DNA of 35,902 nt from a virus: positions 1 through 35,902 of IMG/VR virus record IMGVR_UViG_3300044712_001970; one strand, 5' to 3'. The first letter of the stretch is position 1; each line of letters starts with the position of its first letter. The position numbers and the translations under genes were made by a program. Below the pieces are notes generated by a model that was not told where the DNA came from, searched no databases, and saw only the letters and a program-made list of their open reading frames with translations. Of this stretch, positions 30,065 to 35,902 are shown piece by piece.

Positions 30065-30223
30065 TTATCCCCTCTTCGATCTGTTGAGGTGGCGGCTGAC
30101 GACTTCCTCCACCTCGGCCGAGAAAGAGCTGACCTGGTCGGCCAGCAACCGGGAACGCTTCCGCAATTTCTCCGCCTTCCGGCTGATGCTGCCGGCGATG
30201 GCGTTGATTTCTTCCGGGGTCAT
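30065..30223 (-). CDS. 52-aa helical early protein
   Basis: 52 aa, first 20 residues MTPEEINAIAGSISRKAEKL. A single charged helix with Arg/Lys clusters. The ATG overlaps the transposase stop as ATGA, and its end contains the ribosome site of the ATPase gene, so the three are coupled. A small partner of transposase or ATPase is conceivable. Confidence 0.6.
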   Translation of the reverse strand: MTPEEINAIAGSISRKAEKLRKRSRLLADQVSSFSAEVEEVVSRHLNRSKRG

Positions 30224-32145
30224 GAGGCCTCCTGGGCGGCGGTGAGGAGCGAGATCCGGAGCGACTGGTACCGCGCCGCGTGGCGGGTGTAGTGCTCGGA
30301 CTGCTCATAGAATCGGGCGAAGGTGCGCTCGTCGGCGGGCAGTTCCCGGCCGGCCGCCTCGAGGCGGAGCAGGGCCTCGTAGTGTTCGCCTTCGTCCAGG
30401 CCGGGGAGCTGCTCCCAGATCCGGTCCTCGTCGGTCTCGACCGTCATCGCCGCCGCCCGGGCCTCGATCTGTTCCACGTCCCGCTCCGGCAATGCCCGGA
30501 GCGGAGCGCGGGCCGGTGTTTCCTCCTGGACCAGGGCGAGCTGCGCCCGGGTGGCGGGAATGATCTCGTCCTCGCAAAACTCGCGGGCCAGGGCGCCGAC
30601 CTGTTTCTCCAGGCCCTTCTTCATCTCGATCTGGCGGGCAAGTTCGGCCCGGTCGGAGTCGGTCCCCAGGCAGGCCATCGCGTGGACGCTGGGCGTCTCG
30701 GTGGCCTCGCAGAGGAACTTCCCGTCCGGGTCGTAAACCTTGATCGCGGCCGGGTCGGACAGGTCGTAACGCACCGTCACGTTGTGGCGGCGGCCGTGGA
30801 GTTCCGGGTGGAAGTAGCGCCGGCCGGCGAGGTGGATCCCGTCCCGGTGGATGGTCCGGATCTCGGCCTCGAGCATGAGATAATCGAGCGCCGCGCGGTC
30901 GATCACCGGGAGGGAACTGGCCGCAAGCTCGGCGTCGAACACCTGGCGCGAGGTCTGCCCCTTGAGCCGGCCGTCCTCGTGGGTGCGATCCATCCAGGAG
31001 TCGAACCAGGCGGCGATCGCGCGGTGGGCCTCGATCATGGTCGGGATGTATCCCTGGGTGGCCTTCTCATAGACCCGGCGGTGGAGGGTCTCGCCGCGGT
31101 TGAGCCTCGGGGGCTTGCGCTCGATGCTGGTCCCGGTGTAGGAGCTGACCGACCGCTCGAACTCGGCGAAGTCGCGGAAGAAACGCTCGATCGGCTTGGA
31201 CTGTCCGTGGTACGGCCAGGCGTTGATGACCTTCATCCCGAGCCGCTCATAAAGTCCATTCTGTGTTGAGAGGTCCTCGCCCTTGAAGAACTTCGCGCCG
31301 AAGGCGCGGCCGTTGTCGAGGTAGGCCACGCGCGGGATCCGGCCGGTCCGGAGCAGCGCGCGGCGGAACGCCGAGGCGATCGCGCGGGTGTTTTCCGTCG
31401 GCATCAGCTCCCAGCCCAGCGGGGACTCGCTCTTGTAGTCGGTCCAGAGGACCAGCTCCATCCGCTTCGGCTTGCCGGTCCAGGGGTTGAGGATCTCGAA
31501 GTTGCAGACGTGGCCATCGGCGACCAGAACCTCGCCCGCGCCGATCTCGGAGTAGTCGCGGGTGAGATAGAAGGCGAACTTGTCGTTGTAGGCCTTGGAG
31601 CCCTCGCGGAGGATGGTCGCCTCGGCCCCGTTCTCAGAGGTCCACTTCTTGAGCCAGCGGTAGAAGGTGTCGTCGGACTGCGGGGCCGGGATGCCGGCGG
31701 CACACATCAGGCGGCGCGCTCTCCGGATGACCTCCGAAAGCAGCGGGGCGTTCGGGTGGAGGTAGAGGGAGAGGAGGATTTTCTGCTGGTCCGGCGTCAC
31801 CGAGCTCGCGCGAGACCCGCCGCGGCGGTCCTTCAGATCCAGGGCGTCGCCGGTCTCGCGGACAACCGCCGCCCAGCGCTCCACCGTCGGGGCGCTCACC
31901 GTCCCCAGCAAAGCGAACAGGGCCGGCCAGATGCCAAGATTGTAGGTGTCGATGAACGCCGCCCGGGCCTGGACCTTGCGGCCGTGGGGCGCCGAGGCGA
32001 TCGCGGCGGTGTAGCGGCGGGCCAGATCGGCGCGGGCCAGGGCGATCTCGGTCTTTTCGTTCGGTATGATTGCCGCGGCCAGCGTGACGCTGGACTCTTT
32101 GGTGTCCGGGCCGGGCAGCGCGAGGCGGGTTTCGGTGGTGTCCAT
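30220..32145 (-). CDS. Mu-type DDE transposase (MuA-like)
   Basis: 641 aa from ATG 32145 (GGGAG nine bases upstream; the GTG three codons earlier is less likely). Catalytic triad: D210 (LVADGHV), D277 (AYLDNGRAF) and E320 (PIERFFRDF). The D-D spacing of 67 equals that in MuA, D-E is shorter. N-terminal part has HTH-like helices (IWPALFALLGTVSAPTVERW). After the core comes the beta-barrel-like domain (GIHLAGRRYFHPELHGRRHN) and a C-terminal helical region for the ATPase. It cuts and joins phage ends for lysogeny and replication. An N-terminal palindrome encodes SSVTLAA. Confidence 0.95.
   Translation of the reverse strand: MDTTETRLALPGPDTKESSVTLAAAIIPNEKTEIALARADLARRYTAAIASAPHGRKVQARAAFIDTYNLGIWPALFALLGTVSAPTVERWAAVVRETGDALDLKDRRGGSRASSVTPDQQKILLSLYLHPNAPLLSEVIRRARRLMCAAGIPAPQSDDTFYRWLKKWTSENGAEATILREGSKAYNDKFAFYLTRDYSEIGAGEVLVADGHVCNFEILNPWTGKPKRMELVLWTDYKSESPLGWELMPTENTRAIASAFRRALLRTGRIPRVAYLDNGRAFGAKFFKGEDLSTQNGLYERLGMKVINAWPYHGQSKPIERFFRDFAEFERSVSSYTGTSIERKPPRLNRGETLHRRVYEKATQGYIPTMIEAHRAIAAWFDSWMDRTHEDGRLKGQTSRQVFDAELAASSLPVIDRAALDYLMLEAEIRTIHRDGIHLAGRRYFHPELHGRRHNVTVRYDLSDPAAIKVYDPDGKFLCEATETPSVHAMACLGTDSDRAELARQIEMKKGLEKQVGALAREFCEDEIIPATRAQLALVQEETPARAPLRALPERDVEQIEARAAAMTVETDEDRIWEQLPGLDEGEHYEALLRLEAAGRELPADERTFARFYEQSEHYTRHAARYQSLRISLLTAAQEAS
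32079..32093. repeat. CCAGCGTGACGCTGG palindrome in transposase gene
   Basis: Encodes SSVTLAA at residues 18-24, before the first folded domain. Confidence 0.65.
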
Positions 32146-32348
32146 TACATCCACTCCCGCGGGGACGTCGGGATGATGAGATAACGGGACGCGATCAGTT
32201 CCTTAGTGGCTTCAGACCATCCCTCGGCGACCTGATCGAGCAGGTCCATGCGTCCGCCGGCGACGGGGATCGGGTCCTGTGACTGCCGGCGTCCGTAGAG
32301 GTAGCCCAGTTCCTTGTACGCCTGGAACTTAACGATGGGCGCGTTCAT
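32145..32348 (-). CDS. Small early protein upstream of transposase
   Basis: 67 aa from ATG 32348 (ATGA overlap). Contents: FQAYKELGYLYGRRQSQDPI, then LLDQVAEGWSEATKELIASR. Its stop overlaps the transposase start region. No known domain; it is most likely helical. Confidence 0.6.
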   Translation of the reverse strand: MNAPIVKFQAYKELGYLYGRRQSQDPIPVAGGRMDLLDQVAEGWSEATKELIASRYLIIPTSPREWM

Positions 32349-32551
32349 CGGACTGCCTCCGGTATGGAGTGCGCGGGCTCGACCGCGCTCTGAATCTGCC
32401 GAGTCAGGCACTTCCCGGTTTCCGCGTCCAGGGAGAGCTTGCCGGGATAGCGGCAGCACTCCTTTTTATATAGAGAGTTGAGGTCGGCGAACCGGCAGCC
32501 CGGGCAACCGAGCTGGCGCTGCATCCGCGAGATCTGAGCGGCCTTGGTCAT
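32345..32551 (-). CDS. Small Cys-rich early protein
   Basis: 68 aa. Cysteines in GCPGCRF and KKECCRYPG plus a later KCLT suggest a small metal-binding knot (CxxC plus CC). The N-terminus is a basic helix (KAAQISRMQRQLG). It starts one base before the upstream stop (TAG ATG). Probably a zinc or iron-sulfur micro-domain; role unknown. Confidence 0.6.
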   Translation of the reverse strand: MTKAAQISRMQRQLGCPGCRFADLNSLYKKECCRYPGKLSLDAETGKCLTRQIQSAVEPAHSIPEAVR

Positions 32552-33094
32552 CTATGCCCTCACGAACCTTTCGACCAGGAACCGGCCAAACTGCCCGCCG
32601 CAGGCGGGGCGGAAGTCACCGATGCCCACGAACCTTCCGGCATAGACCAGAATCTCGTTGAGGGTTTCGGCGGAGATTTCGTCCTCGTCAAATTCGAGGG
32701 TGAAGGCCAGCGACCAGGCGGAAAGCATCGGGCGCGAGCGCACGATCCGCGCCCGCTGCACCACCACGGGGCGGCGGTCGATGGTGTAGTTCTGGTTGAG
32801 GTGCGGGATCATATCCGGCGAGATGGTGACGACCCCGGAGCCGAGCAGCAGTCGGTAGGTGGCTTTGCCGCTGCCCTTGACGGAAAATTTGGAGCCGGCC
32901 TTTCTGAGAGCTCCGATCAAGTGGTCGGCGGGTTGGCAAATTTTTCCGTCGGCGTCTCGGTAAAAATAAGAATCGGTGTCGTCCTGCTTCCGGGTTCGGT
33001 TGTTTTTCGTGCTGGCCCCGTCGTCGATTCCGTAGCGGTGCTGGAGGAGGGGGCTGGTCCCGGTGATGGTCACAAAATATTTTGCCAGTTTCAT
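32552..33094 (-). CDS. Conserved phage protein with GIGDFRP motif, RAMP-like impression
   Basis: 180 aa from ATG 33094 (AAGGAT upstream). N-terminal strand KYFVTITGTSPLLQHRYG, a middle rich in beta strands, then YTIDRRPVVVQRARIVRSRP and the glycine-rich YAGRFVGIGDFRPACGGQFG with RF. The N-terminal G-T-S-P-L-L-Q-H pattern and C-terminal Gly-rich loop recall RAMP/Cas7-type RNA-binding folds. That is a visual impression, not an established assignment. It is preceded by a hairpin and the 14-unit pentamer array, so it may act on its own leader RNA. Confidence 0.6.
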   Translation of the reverse strand: MKLAKYFVTITGTSPLLQHRYGIDDGASTKNNRTRKQDDTDSYFYRDADGKICQPADHLIGALRKAGSKFSVKGSGKATYRLLLGSGVVTISPDMIPHLNQNYTIDRRPVVVQRARIVRSRPMLSAWSLAFTLEFDEDEISAETLNEILVYAGRFVGIGDFRPACGGQFGRFLVERFVRA

Positions 33095-33120
33095 CGGCTT
33101 ATCCTTTTTTGTTTGCCGGA

Positions 33121-33140
33121 GCCGGTGGGTTAGCACCGGC
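33121..33140 (-). promoter_or_regulatory. Hairpin between pentamer array and GIGDFRP gene
   Basis: Seven-base stem GCCGGTG/CACCGGC with a six-base loop, 27 bases upstream of the ATG at 33094. Without a U-run it is unlikely to terminate; it may insulate the ribosome site from the array. Confidence 0.5.
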
Positions 33141-33144
33141 CCCA

Positions 33145-33214
33145 GCCCTTACCTCACCTCGCCTCGCCTTGCCATGCCCGACCTCGCCACGCCATACCTG
33201 GCCTCACCCTTCCT
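33145..33214 (-). repeat. Pentanucleotide-phased GG array (14 units)
   Basis: Seventy bases divide without a gap into 14 pentamers, every one with GG at positions 2-3 on the minus (transcribed) strand; the pattern is [AGT]GG[TC]N in 12 of 14. The flanking bases vary, so this is not a simple tandem repeat. It begins at the stop codon of the upstream gene. As RNA it offers GG pairs every five bases, compatible with two-layer G-quadruplexes, many AGG ribosome-site mimics, or a protein stepping every five bases. Confidence 0.85.
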
Positions 33215-33669
33215 TACAACTCGATCTCCAGGGCCATCTTTTTGGCTTGTTTTCTCGCCTCGCGGGCGGCGAGTTCGGCCTTGGCCCAACTCAGAATCAA
33301 CCAGTCGGCATCGTCAACAACACGGCAGCCGCACGCCCGGGCGATGACCTCCAGCGGCCGGAAATCTTCGAGCGCGCGGCAGGTGAGCACGAGAAAACGA
33401 ACCGGGGGAACGTGATTGGTGGCGGAGGCCGAGGACCACTTGTCCAAAAGCGCCCGCGTCACCGGCTTTTTGCTGACAATTCCCGACCGCGCGGCCAATT
33501 TGTTGACCAGGTCGGCGACCTCGTCGCGGGAAAGTTTGGAGTCATGCAGGGCCGCGGCCAGCGCGGACTTGAGGCCGGCGGTCAGGTCGAGATCGAGGTA
33601 GCCGAAAAGTGACTCCTGGTGGGCGGGGCGGTTGTCCGAACCCCGTTGGGAATTGCTATTGACCATCAT
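33214..33669 (-). CDS. HTH-containing early protein
   Basis: 151 aa from ATG 33669 (tandem ATGATG with GGCGGTGGG upstream), overlapping the end of the previous gene; the longer frame to 33780 lies inside that gene. Helix segment KLSRDEVADLVNKLAARSG followed by SKKPVTRALLDKWSSASA looks like an HTH. Later conserved-looking part: PPVRFLVLTCRALEDF, ACGCRVVDDADWLILSWAKA and a basic helical end. Probably a regulator in the first steps of lytic growth; no named family assigned. Confidence 0.65.
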   Translation of the reverse strand: MMVNSNSQRGSDNRPAHQESLFGYLDLDLTAGLKSALAAALHDSKLSRDEVADLVNKLAARSGIVSKKPVTRALLDKWSSASATNHVPPVRFLVLTCRALEDFRPLEVIARACGCRVVDDADWLILSWAKAELAAREARKQAKKMALEIEL

Positions 33670-34129
33670 GCCCACCGCCGCTATAATCCCCATCAATGAG
33701 CGCAGGATTTTCATCAGGTTTGGTTCCCTCGACCGGCACGGTTGCAATGAAGTCCGCCTGGGGGATTTCAGGTTCTTCATTATTAATAGAGGAATCTGGC
33801 CGGACGAGGGATGGGTCCGGGTGGGTCAAGCCCGGAGGTGGGACCGGAACGGAAGCAGAGCACGCGGGGGTCGCGGACTCGTTTTTTATGGGGTCGGGGA
33901 GTTCCTCAATGGTGAGGTGGCAGATCCGGCGGACGGCGGCATGGGAGTTGGTTAAGGCAGCCAGACCGCGAGCCACCTGTAAGCTATTGTGTTTACTGTT
34001 AAAAAAACCCACTACCAATGACGGGCTGCACCCGATGTGACGGGCCACGGCCGACATGGTGAGTGGGCGGTGCTGCTTTTTCAACAGGCGGAGTAGATCA
34101 AGGTACCGTTTTGTCTGTGACGGATTCAT
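33656..34129 (-). CDS. Ner/Cro-position HTH regulator, first early gene
   Basis: 157 aa. Residues ~5-50 (RYLDLLRLLKKQHRPLTMSA with VARHIGCSPSLVVGFFNS) are a helix-turn-helix DNA-binding segment. Residues ~75-157 are Pro/Glu-rich and disordered-looking. It is divergent from the repressor, where Mu has ner and lambda has cro, so it probably turns down repressor and early transcription. The transcript predicted from the strong promoter begins only a few bases before the ATG at 34129, and no ribosome site is present. The start is probably near-leaderless. Confidence 0.65.
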   Translation of the reverse strand: MNPSQTKRYLDLLRLLKKQHRPLTMSAVARHIGCSPSLVVGFFNSKHNSLQVARGLAALTNSHAAVRRICHLTIEELPDPIKNESATPACSASVPVPPPGLTHPDPSLVRPDSSINNEEPEIPQADFIATVPVEGTKPDENPALIDGDYSGGGHDGQ

Positions 34130-34196
34130 TGATGGGATTCATCTTAACACACCTTTCGCGGTGTGTCAACAAGGTTTTTTTAAAAAAACACCAGCG
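34130..34196. promoter_or_regulatory. Divergent lysis-lysogeny control region
   Basis: 67 bases between repressor (plus) and Ner-like gene (minus). The minus strand has TTGACA (34169-34164), exactly 17 bases, then TAAGAT (34146-34141), a near-consensus sigma70 promoter. The inverted repeat ACACACC/GGTGTGT (34147-34153 and 34160-34166) overlaps the -35 and fills the spacer; it is the likely repressor operator. A second palindrome-like tract, GGTTTTTTT/AAAAAAACACC (34173-34192), lies next to the repressor start. No clear plus-strand promoter was found. Confidence 0.85.
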
Positions 34197-34952
34197 ATGA
34201 TGAAAAACGACATAGGTATCGGTGGCAGGATAAAGGAATTAAGAAAGGATCGTCACTTTACACAAGAGATGGTCGCCAAGGAGGCGGGTGTTCATTTAAA
34301 CACTTACAGCCGTTGGGAGCGAGGTTTGACGGAGCCCTCGGTTGGAGAGGTGGTTCAATTAGCCAAAATTTTCAAGGCACGGACTGACTGGATCATTCAT
34401 GGGACAGGAACCAGGGACGTTCCTCCAAACCTGGACAGCTATGACAGTACTTATTTTTACTCCCCCACCACGGGAATCACCGACGCAGATCGCGCCGTCG
34501 GCAGAGAGGGTGAAAAACTTGTTTATGAAAACGCGAAAATTGTCGCCCTGGGAGAAGCCCGTTCCATTCCTGTCGTCGGAATGGTCCACGCTGGAGAATG
34601 GGCCGAGGCCTGTGATGGTGGTTATCCTCCTGGACGCGCTGACAGCTTCGTTGTTTCCGACGTTCGTGGTAAAAACCTTTTCGCGGTTAGGGTCGAGGGC
34701 GATTCAATGGAGCCTGACTTTAAACCCGGTGACATTATAATTATTGACCCCACGGCCGAGCCCGTCGTTGGCGATTTTGTTATCGTGAAGATTGAATCTA
34801 CTGAAGAGGTCACCTTCAAAAAGCTCATCTATCGGACAAAAAAGCTTGTCATCTTTCGTCCCCTCAATATAAATTATGAAGACATCGCGTTGACGCCCAA
34901 GGATCCATTTCGTATTATTGGCCGTGTGGTCGAACGTAAAACCCTGCTTTAG
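34197..34952 (+). CDS. LexA/CI-type repressor with S24 self-cleavage domain
   Basis: 251 aa from ATGATG at 34197; the longer frame to 34056 has no ribosome site. Residues ~8-65 are an HTH_3 domain (GGRIKELRKDRHFTQEMVAK, then HLNTYSRWERGLTEPSVGEV). The C-terminal S24 domain has an Ala-Gly cleavage site (MVHAGEW, 132-133), nucleophile Ser170 (EGDSMEP) and general-base Lys208 (EEVTFKK). Repressors of this type are cleaved with RecA help, so the prophage should respond to DNA damage, unlike Mu c. The gene is AT-richer than the rest of the phage, typical of a lysogeny gene. Confidence 0.92.
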   Translation: MMKNDIGIGGRIKELRKDRHFTQEMVAKEAGVHLNTYSRWERGLTEPSVGEVVQLAKIFKARTDWIIHGTGTRDVPPNLDSYDSTYFYSPTTGITDADRAVGREGEKLVYENAKIVALGEARSIPVVGMVHAGEWAEACDGGYPPGRADSFVVSDVRGKNLFAVRVEGDSMEPDFKPGDIIIIDPTAEPVVGDFVIVKIESTEEVTFKKLIYRTKKLVIFRPLNINYEDIALTPKDPFRIIGRVVERKTLL

Positions 34953-35536: not shown

Positions 35537-35902
35537 TGACCTGGCTGCGTCCGACGCCCGCCAGGCCGCATAAATGGGCTGAAGTTTTTCGGATAGGGTT
35601 TTTGTGTTTCTTGGCCCCTGCCGCCCGCATGATTACTGGGCTGTCAGGCCGTTTCAGGCCTGCTCAAGGTTTCTCAGGTTCCCTGCGGTGGTACACCAGG
35701 ATCGGGGCGGACCTGATTCCGGCGAACGGAACCAACGGATCCGACGGATCAGACGGATCGTCGCGTTGCCTTCGGGATGTTCCGTTTTATCCGTTGGTTC
35801 CGTTCGGTCGAATCAAGGCCACAGCCTCGCCAGTCGCCGCCCGGCAATCATTTCCGGTCTTATCCGTTCCATCCGATCCTCGTCCGTTTCATCCGTTTAA
35901 CC
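35537..35902. other. Probable host intergenic DNA beyond the prophage
   Basis: 366 bases without a convincing gene. It begins with nested hairpins (CCCAT/ATGGG and CCTGGC/GCCAGG, about 35533-35578). Then come repeated ATCCGT/ACGGAT units, including a perfect 18-base inverted repeat. No tRNA is seen and the plus-strand open frame of about 98 codons is made of these repeats. Confidence 0.5.
35723..35806. repeat. 18-bp perfect inverted repeat with ATCCGT units
   Basis: CGAACGGAACCAACGGAT (35723-35740) pairs with ATCCGTTGGTTCCGTTCG (35789-35806) across a 48-base loop that itself contains further ACGGAT units. More ATCCGT copies follow to 35898. Looks like a host dispersed element or a bidirectional terminator. 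Confidence 0.7.

Follow-up and report, generated by a model that had tools for sequence, protein, structure and literature searches.

A probable minimal VIPR system among the early genes of a Mu-like phage

The stretch of viral DNA analysed here (the window; 35,902 nucleotides, positions 1 to 35,902 of IMG/VR record IMGVR_UViG_3300044712_001970) carries on its minus strand an array of regularly spaced GG dinucleotides directly ahead of a gene for a RAMP protein, and judged by its sequence this array-vipr locus is of the already described VIPR kind. We consider it very probable that the locus constitutes a minimal VIPR system, guide-directed repression included, which a Mu-like phage carries as cargo within its early operon. 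VIPR was described in 2026 (bioRxiv) as a phage-encoded RAMP protein, Vipr, acting with vrRNAs that consist of 9-16 YNNGG repeats and a structured 3' tail (PMC13142463), and this was the sole paper on such a system found by full-text literature searches. The NN dinucleotides of the vrRNA read double-stranded DNA, skipping one base between them and leaving GGY unpaired, and the complex represses transcription, with many natural targets in satellites and prophages; in SUSP1, whose system is type II of seven types, the vrRNAs co-purify with Vipr and direct DNA binding (PMC13142463). An earlier note on this DNA knew of no named element of this kind; the array can now be given a name, as the vrRNA of a VIPR system. 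The features of the locus are collected in Table 1.

Table 1. Features of the VIPR locus and its surroundings in the window
Feature	Position	Strand	Description	Evidence
vrRNA variable tract	33146..33210	-	13 NN-GGY/GGG units	sequence, run statistics, matching arrangement in other VIPR loci, SUSP1 included
vrRNA 3' tail	33115..33146	-	predicted 13-bp hairpin, 6-nt loop, CTGGG pentamer included	fold prediction
vipr	32552..33094	-	180-aa RAMP protein, RRM-like core, G-loop GIGDFRPACGGQFGRF	PDB 36pp, phrog_4652, AlphaFold2, Csm3/Cas7 fold matches
Upstream early-operon regulator	33214..33780	-	phrog_2345; stop codon abuts array	PHROG match
Cys-rich 68-aa ORF	32345..32551	-	begins right after vipr stop codon	position
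Mu-type transposase A	30220..32154	-	downstream	phrog_310 E=1.3e-97, Mu-transpos_C
Sigma-70-like promoter match	34141..34169	-	TTGACA-17-TAAGAT	consensus match only

Between the stop codon of the upstream regulator gene and the start codon of vipr, 70 bases (33210-33141, minus strand) fall into 14 pentamers with GG in phase throughout: AGGGT GAGGC CAGGT ATGGC GTGGC GAGGT CGGGC ATGGC AAGGC GAGGC GAGGT GAGGT AAGGG CTGGG. A pyrimidine follows GG in units 1-12, which therefore read NN-GGY, units 13 and 14 being AAGGG and CTGGG, and the phase continues into a fifteenth GG (AAGGA), which overlaps the upstream gene's stop codon. In 120 sequences simulated from order 1-3 Markov models of the window and scanned on both strands, in-phase runs reached at most 6 GG and at most 5 GGY, against the 15 and 12 observed, and 19 control loci (197 kb) gave at most 5 and 4, respectively; the next longest in-phase GG run within the window is 5, and no second array was found there. 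The array is real, non-random and far outside chance. Both the minus-strand reading and the run statistics bear out the 14-pentamer array reported in the earlier note, and the concern raised there that such arrays might be common at random is answered by simulations and control loci that fall far short of it.

The dinucleotides preceding GG in the first 13 units (AG GA CA AT GT GA CG AT AA GA GA GA AA) are of seven different kinds, with GGY unchanged in 12 units, and the array is not a duplication because these positions vary; selection for phasing, as had been proposed from the same contrast between differing NN and constant GGY, is the right reading. The weak period-5 and period-20 repeats that a tandem repeat finder reports would be expected of a functionless simple tandem-repeat expansion, an explanation to which we give next to no credence, given the variable NN, the invariant GGY and the linkage to vipr described below, and given also that a true 10-base expansion encountered elsewhere (locus L103) looks quite different, being a plain tandem repeat of nearly identical copies with no vipr.

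At the 3' end of the array, CTGGG and the last G of AAGGG form part of the stem of a predicted hairpin (33146-33115; -27.2 kcal/mol, z -4.6 against shuffled sequences), and the variable tract is better counted as 13 units (33210-33146) because CTGGG sits in this stem. The hairpin is followed by no U-tract and is absent from the terminator scan, so that it is not an intrinsic terminator; an Rfam search of window positions 32000-34200 returned no match, and a search of other viral contigs found the tail sequence nowhere else. On the array strand the terminator scan gave one weak terminator-like site (34027-34006) and none in the leader, which suggests that the vrRNA is probably either cleaved out of the early transcript or assembled on that transcript; the sigma-70-like consensus match upstream of the early operon is a candidate source of it.

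The adjacent protein has a single convincing match among solved structures by phmmer, PDB 36pp, 'SUSP1 Vipr protein' (E=1.7e-11, residues 9-175), and is thus homologous to a known Vipr; the sole family matched is phrog_4652 (E=6.5e-20, nearly full length), to which PHROGs assigns no function and the VIPR literature supplies one. An AlphaFold2 model (27 viral homologues; mean pLDDT 89.7) has as its top fold matches Csm3/Cas7 RAMP subunits of type III and type VII CRISPR complexes (VIA-align Z up to 12.9, rmsd 3.1-3.6, about 160 residues), so that the structure prediction proposed in the earlier note yields a RAMP (Cas7/Csm3) fold with an RRM-like core and a glycine-rich loop. SUSP1 Vipr itself is absent among the fold matches listed (library to April 2026), and the likeness to it is a matter of sequence. 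G157, R162 and G170 are invariant. The surroundings described before, namely the hairpin, the ribosome site, the N-terminal GTSPLLQH strand and the GIGDFRP loop, are all in place, and what had been noted as a 'Gly-rich C-terminal loop' is the RAMP G-loop.

The likeness to Csm3/Cas7 of class 1 CRISPR (types III and VII) extends along the whole chain, and such subunits coat RNA periodically in known complexes; identity is, however, 10-16%, and the guide in the window consists of five-base NN/GGY units with no contiguous spacer. CRISPR-Cas class 1 was ruled out, since the locus has a GGY/NN array in place of a repeat-spacer array and several cas genes, neither a CRISPR array nor cas genes being present.

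Comparison with the SUSP1 system shows the same arrangement in outline. Both loci are phage-encoded and have a tandem NNGGY array with a structured tail adjoining a gene for a RAMP Vipr of approximately 180-195 aa with a G-loop, and in SUSP1 most arrays also have NNGGG before the tail; the 13 units found here, 12 of them consecutive GGY, with a 13-bp tail hairpin, lie within the published range of repeat number and structure. The two differ in that SUSP1 has four vrRNAs whereas the window has one, upstream only, in that the window Vipr is about 28% identical to that of SUSP1, and in that the tail predicted here is a plain hairpin whereas the SUSP1 tail is reported to be pseudoknotted. The SUSP1 locus lacks homologues of the regulator and of the Cys-rich ORF, and the carrier here is Mu-like. 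A vap accessory gene is typical of VIPR, not universal, and no recognised vap gene was found in the locus. The Cys-rich ORF, for which no family, phage or library match and no similarity to SUSP1-locus ORFs was found, is a possible new accessory gene; PADLOC gave no match for vipr, the regulator or this ORF.

Arrays and vipr go together well beyond these two loci. Most of the named homologues fetched and examined have GGY/NN arrays beside vipr, including those of SUSP1, Citrobacter phage Mijalis, phage DSL-LC04, Gordonia phages Trine and UmaThurman, Mycobacterium phages Brocalys and LittleE, and plasmid loci of Paenibacillus, Azospirillum oryzae (unnamed6) and Bradyrhizobium barranii; the phage groups represented are Felixounavirus-like, Gordonia, Mycobacterium and Dishui Lake. 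In Bradyrhizobium japonicum the array is present though the vipr frame has an internal stop, the sole run in phiHSIC is short, minor and not beside vipr, and for a second homologue in A. oryzae (unnamed3) no array exceeded the threshold. An array-first scan, requiring 11 in-phase GGYNN units in IMG/VR sequences, gave at least 120 loci and independently supports the association of GGY/NN arrays with Vipr in viral contigs. Among the matches listed, a Vipr HMM match was found in 89 of 120 loci, in which 254 of 260 arrays share the strand of vipr, with a median distance of 220 nt from it; several of the 31 loci with no Vipr match, again among the matches listed, have the array near the end of the stored sequence, and one of the 31 is the plain tandem repeat L103. 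Arrays are therefore present next to homologues of the window gene by both the homologue survey and the array-first scan.

These data also bear on the roles that had been suggested for the array. That it is a binding array for the adjacent protein was essentially right, the protein being a Vipr RAMP whose SUSP1 counterpart co-purifies with vrRNAs (PMC13142463), and the earlier interpretation thus stands as to selected phasing and a protein-bound array, is unsupported as to quadruplexes and a decoy, and is superseded as to an unnamed element. With GG every five bases, the three-base gaps could serve as loops of two-layer RNA G-quadruplexes regulating the operon, as general knowledge would allow, yet such structures call for no pyrimidine behind each of 12 successive GGs and for no linked RAMP gene, leave the variable NN unexplained, and do not account for the strand bias noted above; we regard this reading as extremely improbable. 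Sequestration of ribosomes by an array acting as a decoy for the 16S anti-Shine-Dalgarno, as some units resembling GGAGG/GAGG might suggest, deserves just as little weight, because many units are unlike Shine-Dalgarno sequences (ATGGC, CGGGC and GTGGC here; others elsewhere) and because the variable NN, the strict five-base phase and the linkage to vipr would be left without explanation. A further reading makes the array a cis-acting leader in the vipr mRNA, through which Vipr represses its own translation with no targeting of foreign DNA. Array and tail do share the strand of vipr and immediately precede its ribosome site, the stable hairpin stopping approximately 20 nt before the start codon; nevertheless, SUSP1 and many others have most arrays downstream of vipr or as multi-guide arrays, the NN positions differ between loci, and SUSP1 vrRNAs direct DNA binding (PMC13142463), so that we consider this very unlikely, if somewhat less so than the foregoing. 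Autoregulation by the leader may, however, operate on top of DNA targeting.

Several of the loci surveyed show features of their own. Very long or staggered GGY/NN arrays adjoin vipr in L038 (6301-7015; 135/143 in-phase units), L104 (1088-1462; 70/75) and L107 (reverse strand, 2181-2485; 57/61), far above the 9-16 units of described vrRNAs, and the L038 contig that bears this long array also has near-threshold matches to the type-P5 twister ribozyme (2001-2082 and 2663-2747; E 0.0005 and 0.012). In Gordonia phage Trine (L005, 3122-3345) and Mycobacterium phage LittleE (L008, 2175-2430 and 3666-3970) the GGY/NN arrays are followed by tRNA-like elements with a T-arm-like GGTTCGA(G/C)TCC and an acceptor-like closing stem, one of them called an odd tRNA by ARAGORN, and tRNA-processing enzymes may cut the guides of these loci apart; hammerhead ribozymes are mentioned in the main text of the VIPR paper, tRNA-like tails are not (PMC13142463). 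Upstream of a distant Vipr homologue in L002 (3990-4440), looser five-base phasing with RGC/GAC-like units was seen by eye, perhaps a variant consensus instead of strict GGY.

The locus in the window lies among a phage regulator, small ORFs and MuA/MuB, and the Mu-type transposase A downstream identifies its context as the early operon of a transposable phage; the window also encodes a MuB homologue and, on the opposite strand, a CI-like repressor. No array was found in relatives identified by MuA (39-48% identity), and four of them have a homologue of the regulator, which in L021 precedes the MuA frame by about 300 bases. The VIPR locus therefore looks like early-operon cargo, inserted between regulator and transposase, and the regulator is a conserved phage gene rather than a VIPR part. 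At the right end of the window (35726-35898) there are short period-9 repeats, ACGGATCCG / ATCCGTTTC, possibly host flank of a prophage.

Decoding of the array by the published one-base-skip rule gives the target AGNGANCANATNGTNGANCGNATNAANGANGANGANAA, which, if translated with each skipped base as the third base of a codon, corresponds to [SR][DE][HQ][IM]V[DE]R[IM][NK][DE][DE][DE][NK], plausibly a helical peptide. The exact 13-unit pattern had no match in IMG/VR; of three overlapping 9-unit patterns, units 1-9 and 5-13 had one match each and units 3-11 had nine, most encoding a similar helical peptide of type VERI(N/K) and the best reaching no more than 22/26. The 11-unit pattern had one match in GTDB genomes, in a metallophosphoesterase gene (L018, 23/26), which was rejected as a target because it is at chance level, approximately 8 such matches being expected in 257 Gb by a simple hand-made binomial estimate; when 258 fetched guides were compared with the fetched loci, the top one-skip match was this same pattern-selected L018. 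The window itself contains no target (best 17/26), and no convincing natural target above chance was found in IMG/VR and GTDB genomes, collections that may not include the right rival phage.

By analogy with the characterised relative, from which we infer transcription, processing, assembly of the ribonucleoprotein, the one-base-skip rule and repression, the leader that separates vipr from the regulator gene would be transcribed into a vrRNA of about 95 nt with 13 NN-GGY units and a hairpin tail. Cas7-like Vipr subunits would align along this RNA and grip its GGY motifs, leaving the exposed NN dinucleotides to pair with double-stranded DNA bearing NN x NN x NN, one base being skipped, and binding of the Vipr-vrRNA complex would keep a gene belonging to a competing mobile element from being transcribed. 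A more specific and decidedly tentative version, which we hold to be doubtful, is that the guide is vipr's own 5' leader, that Vipr, in assembling upon it, forms the effector and at the same time limits translation of vipr, and that the Mu-like carrier directs VIPR at the lysis-lysogeny genes of rival Mu-like phages.

VIPR has been presented as a means of recognising DNA by an RNA-guided, noncontiguous code that is proposed to be older than CRISPR (PMC13142463). The present locus is a very compact form of it, with one guide and one 180-aa protein in approximately 660 bases, and stands out for this compactness, for an array that serves as the vipr leader and for its Mu-like carrier, a phage that VIPR, by analogy with the characterised system, probably enables to switch off the genes of rival viruses.
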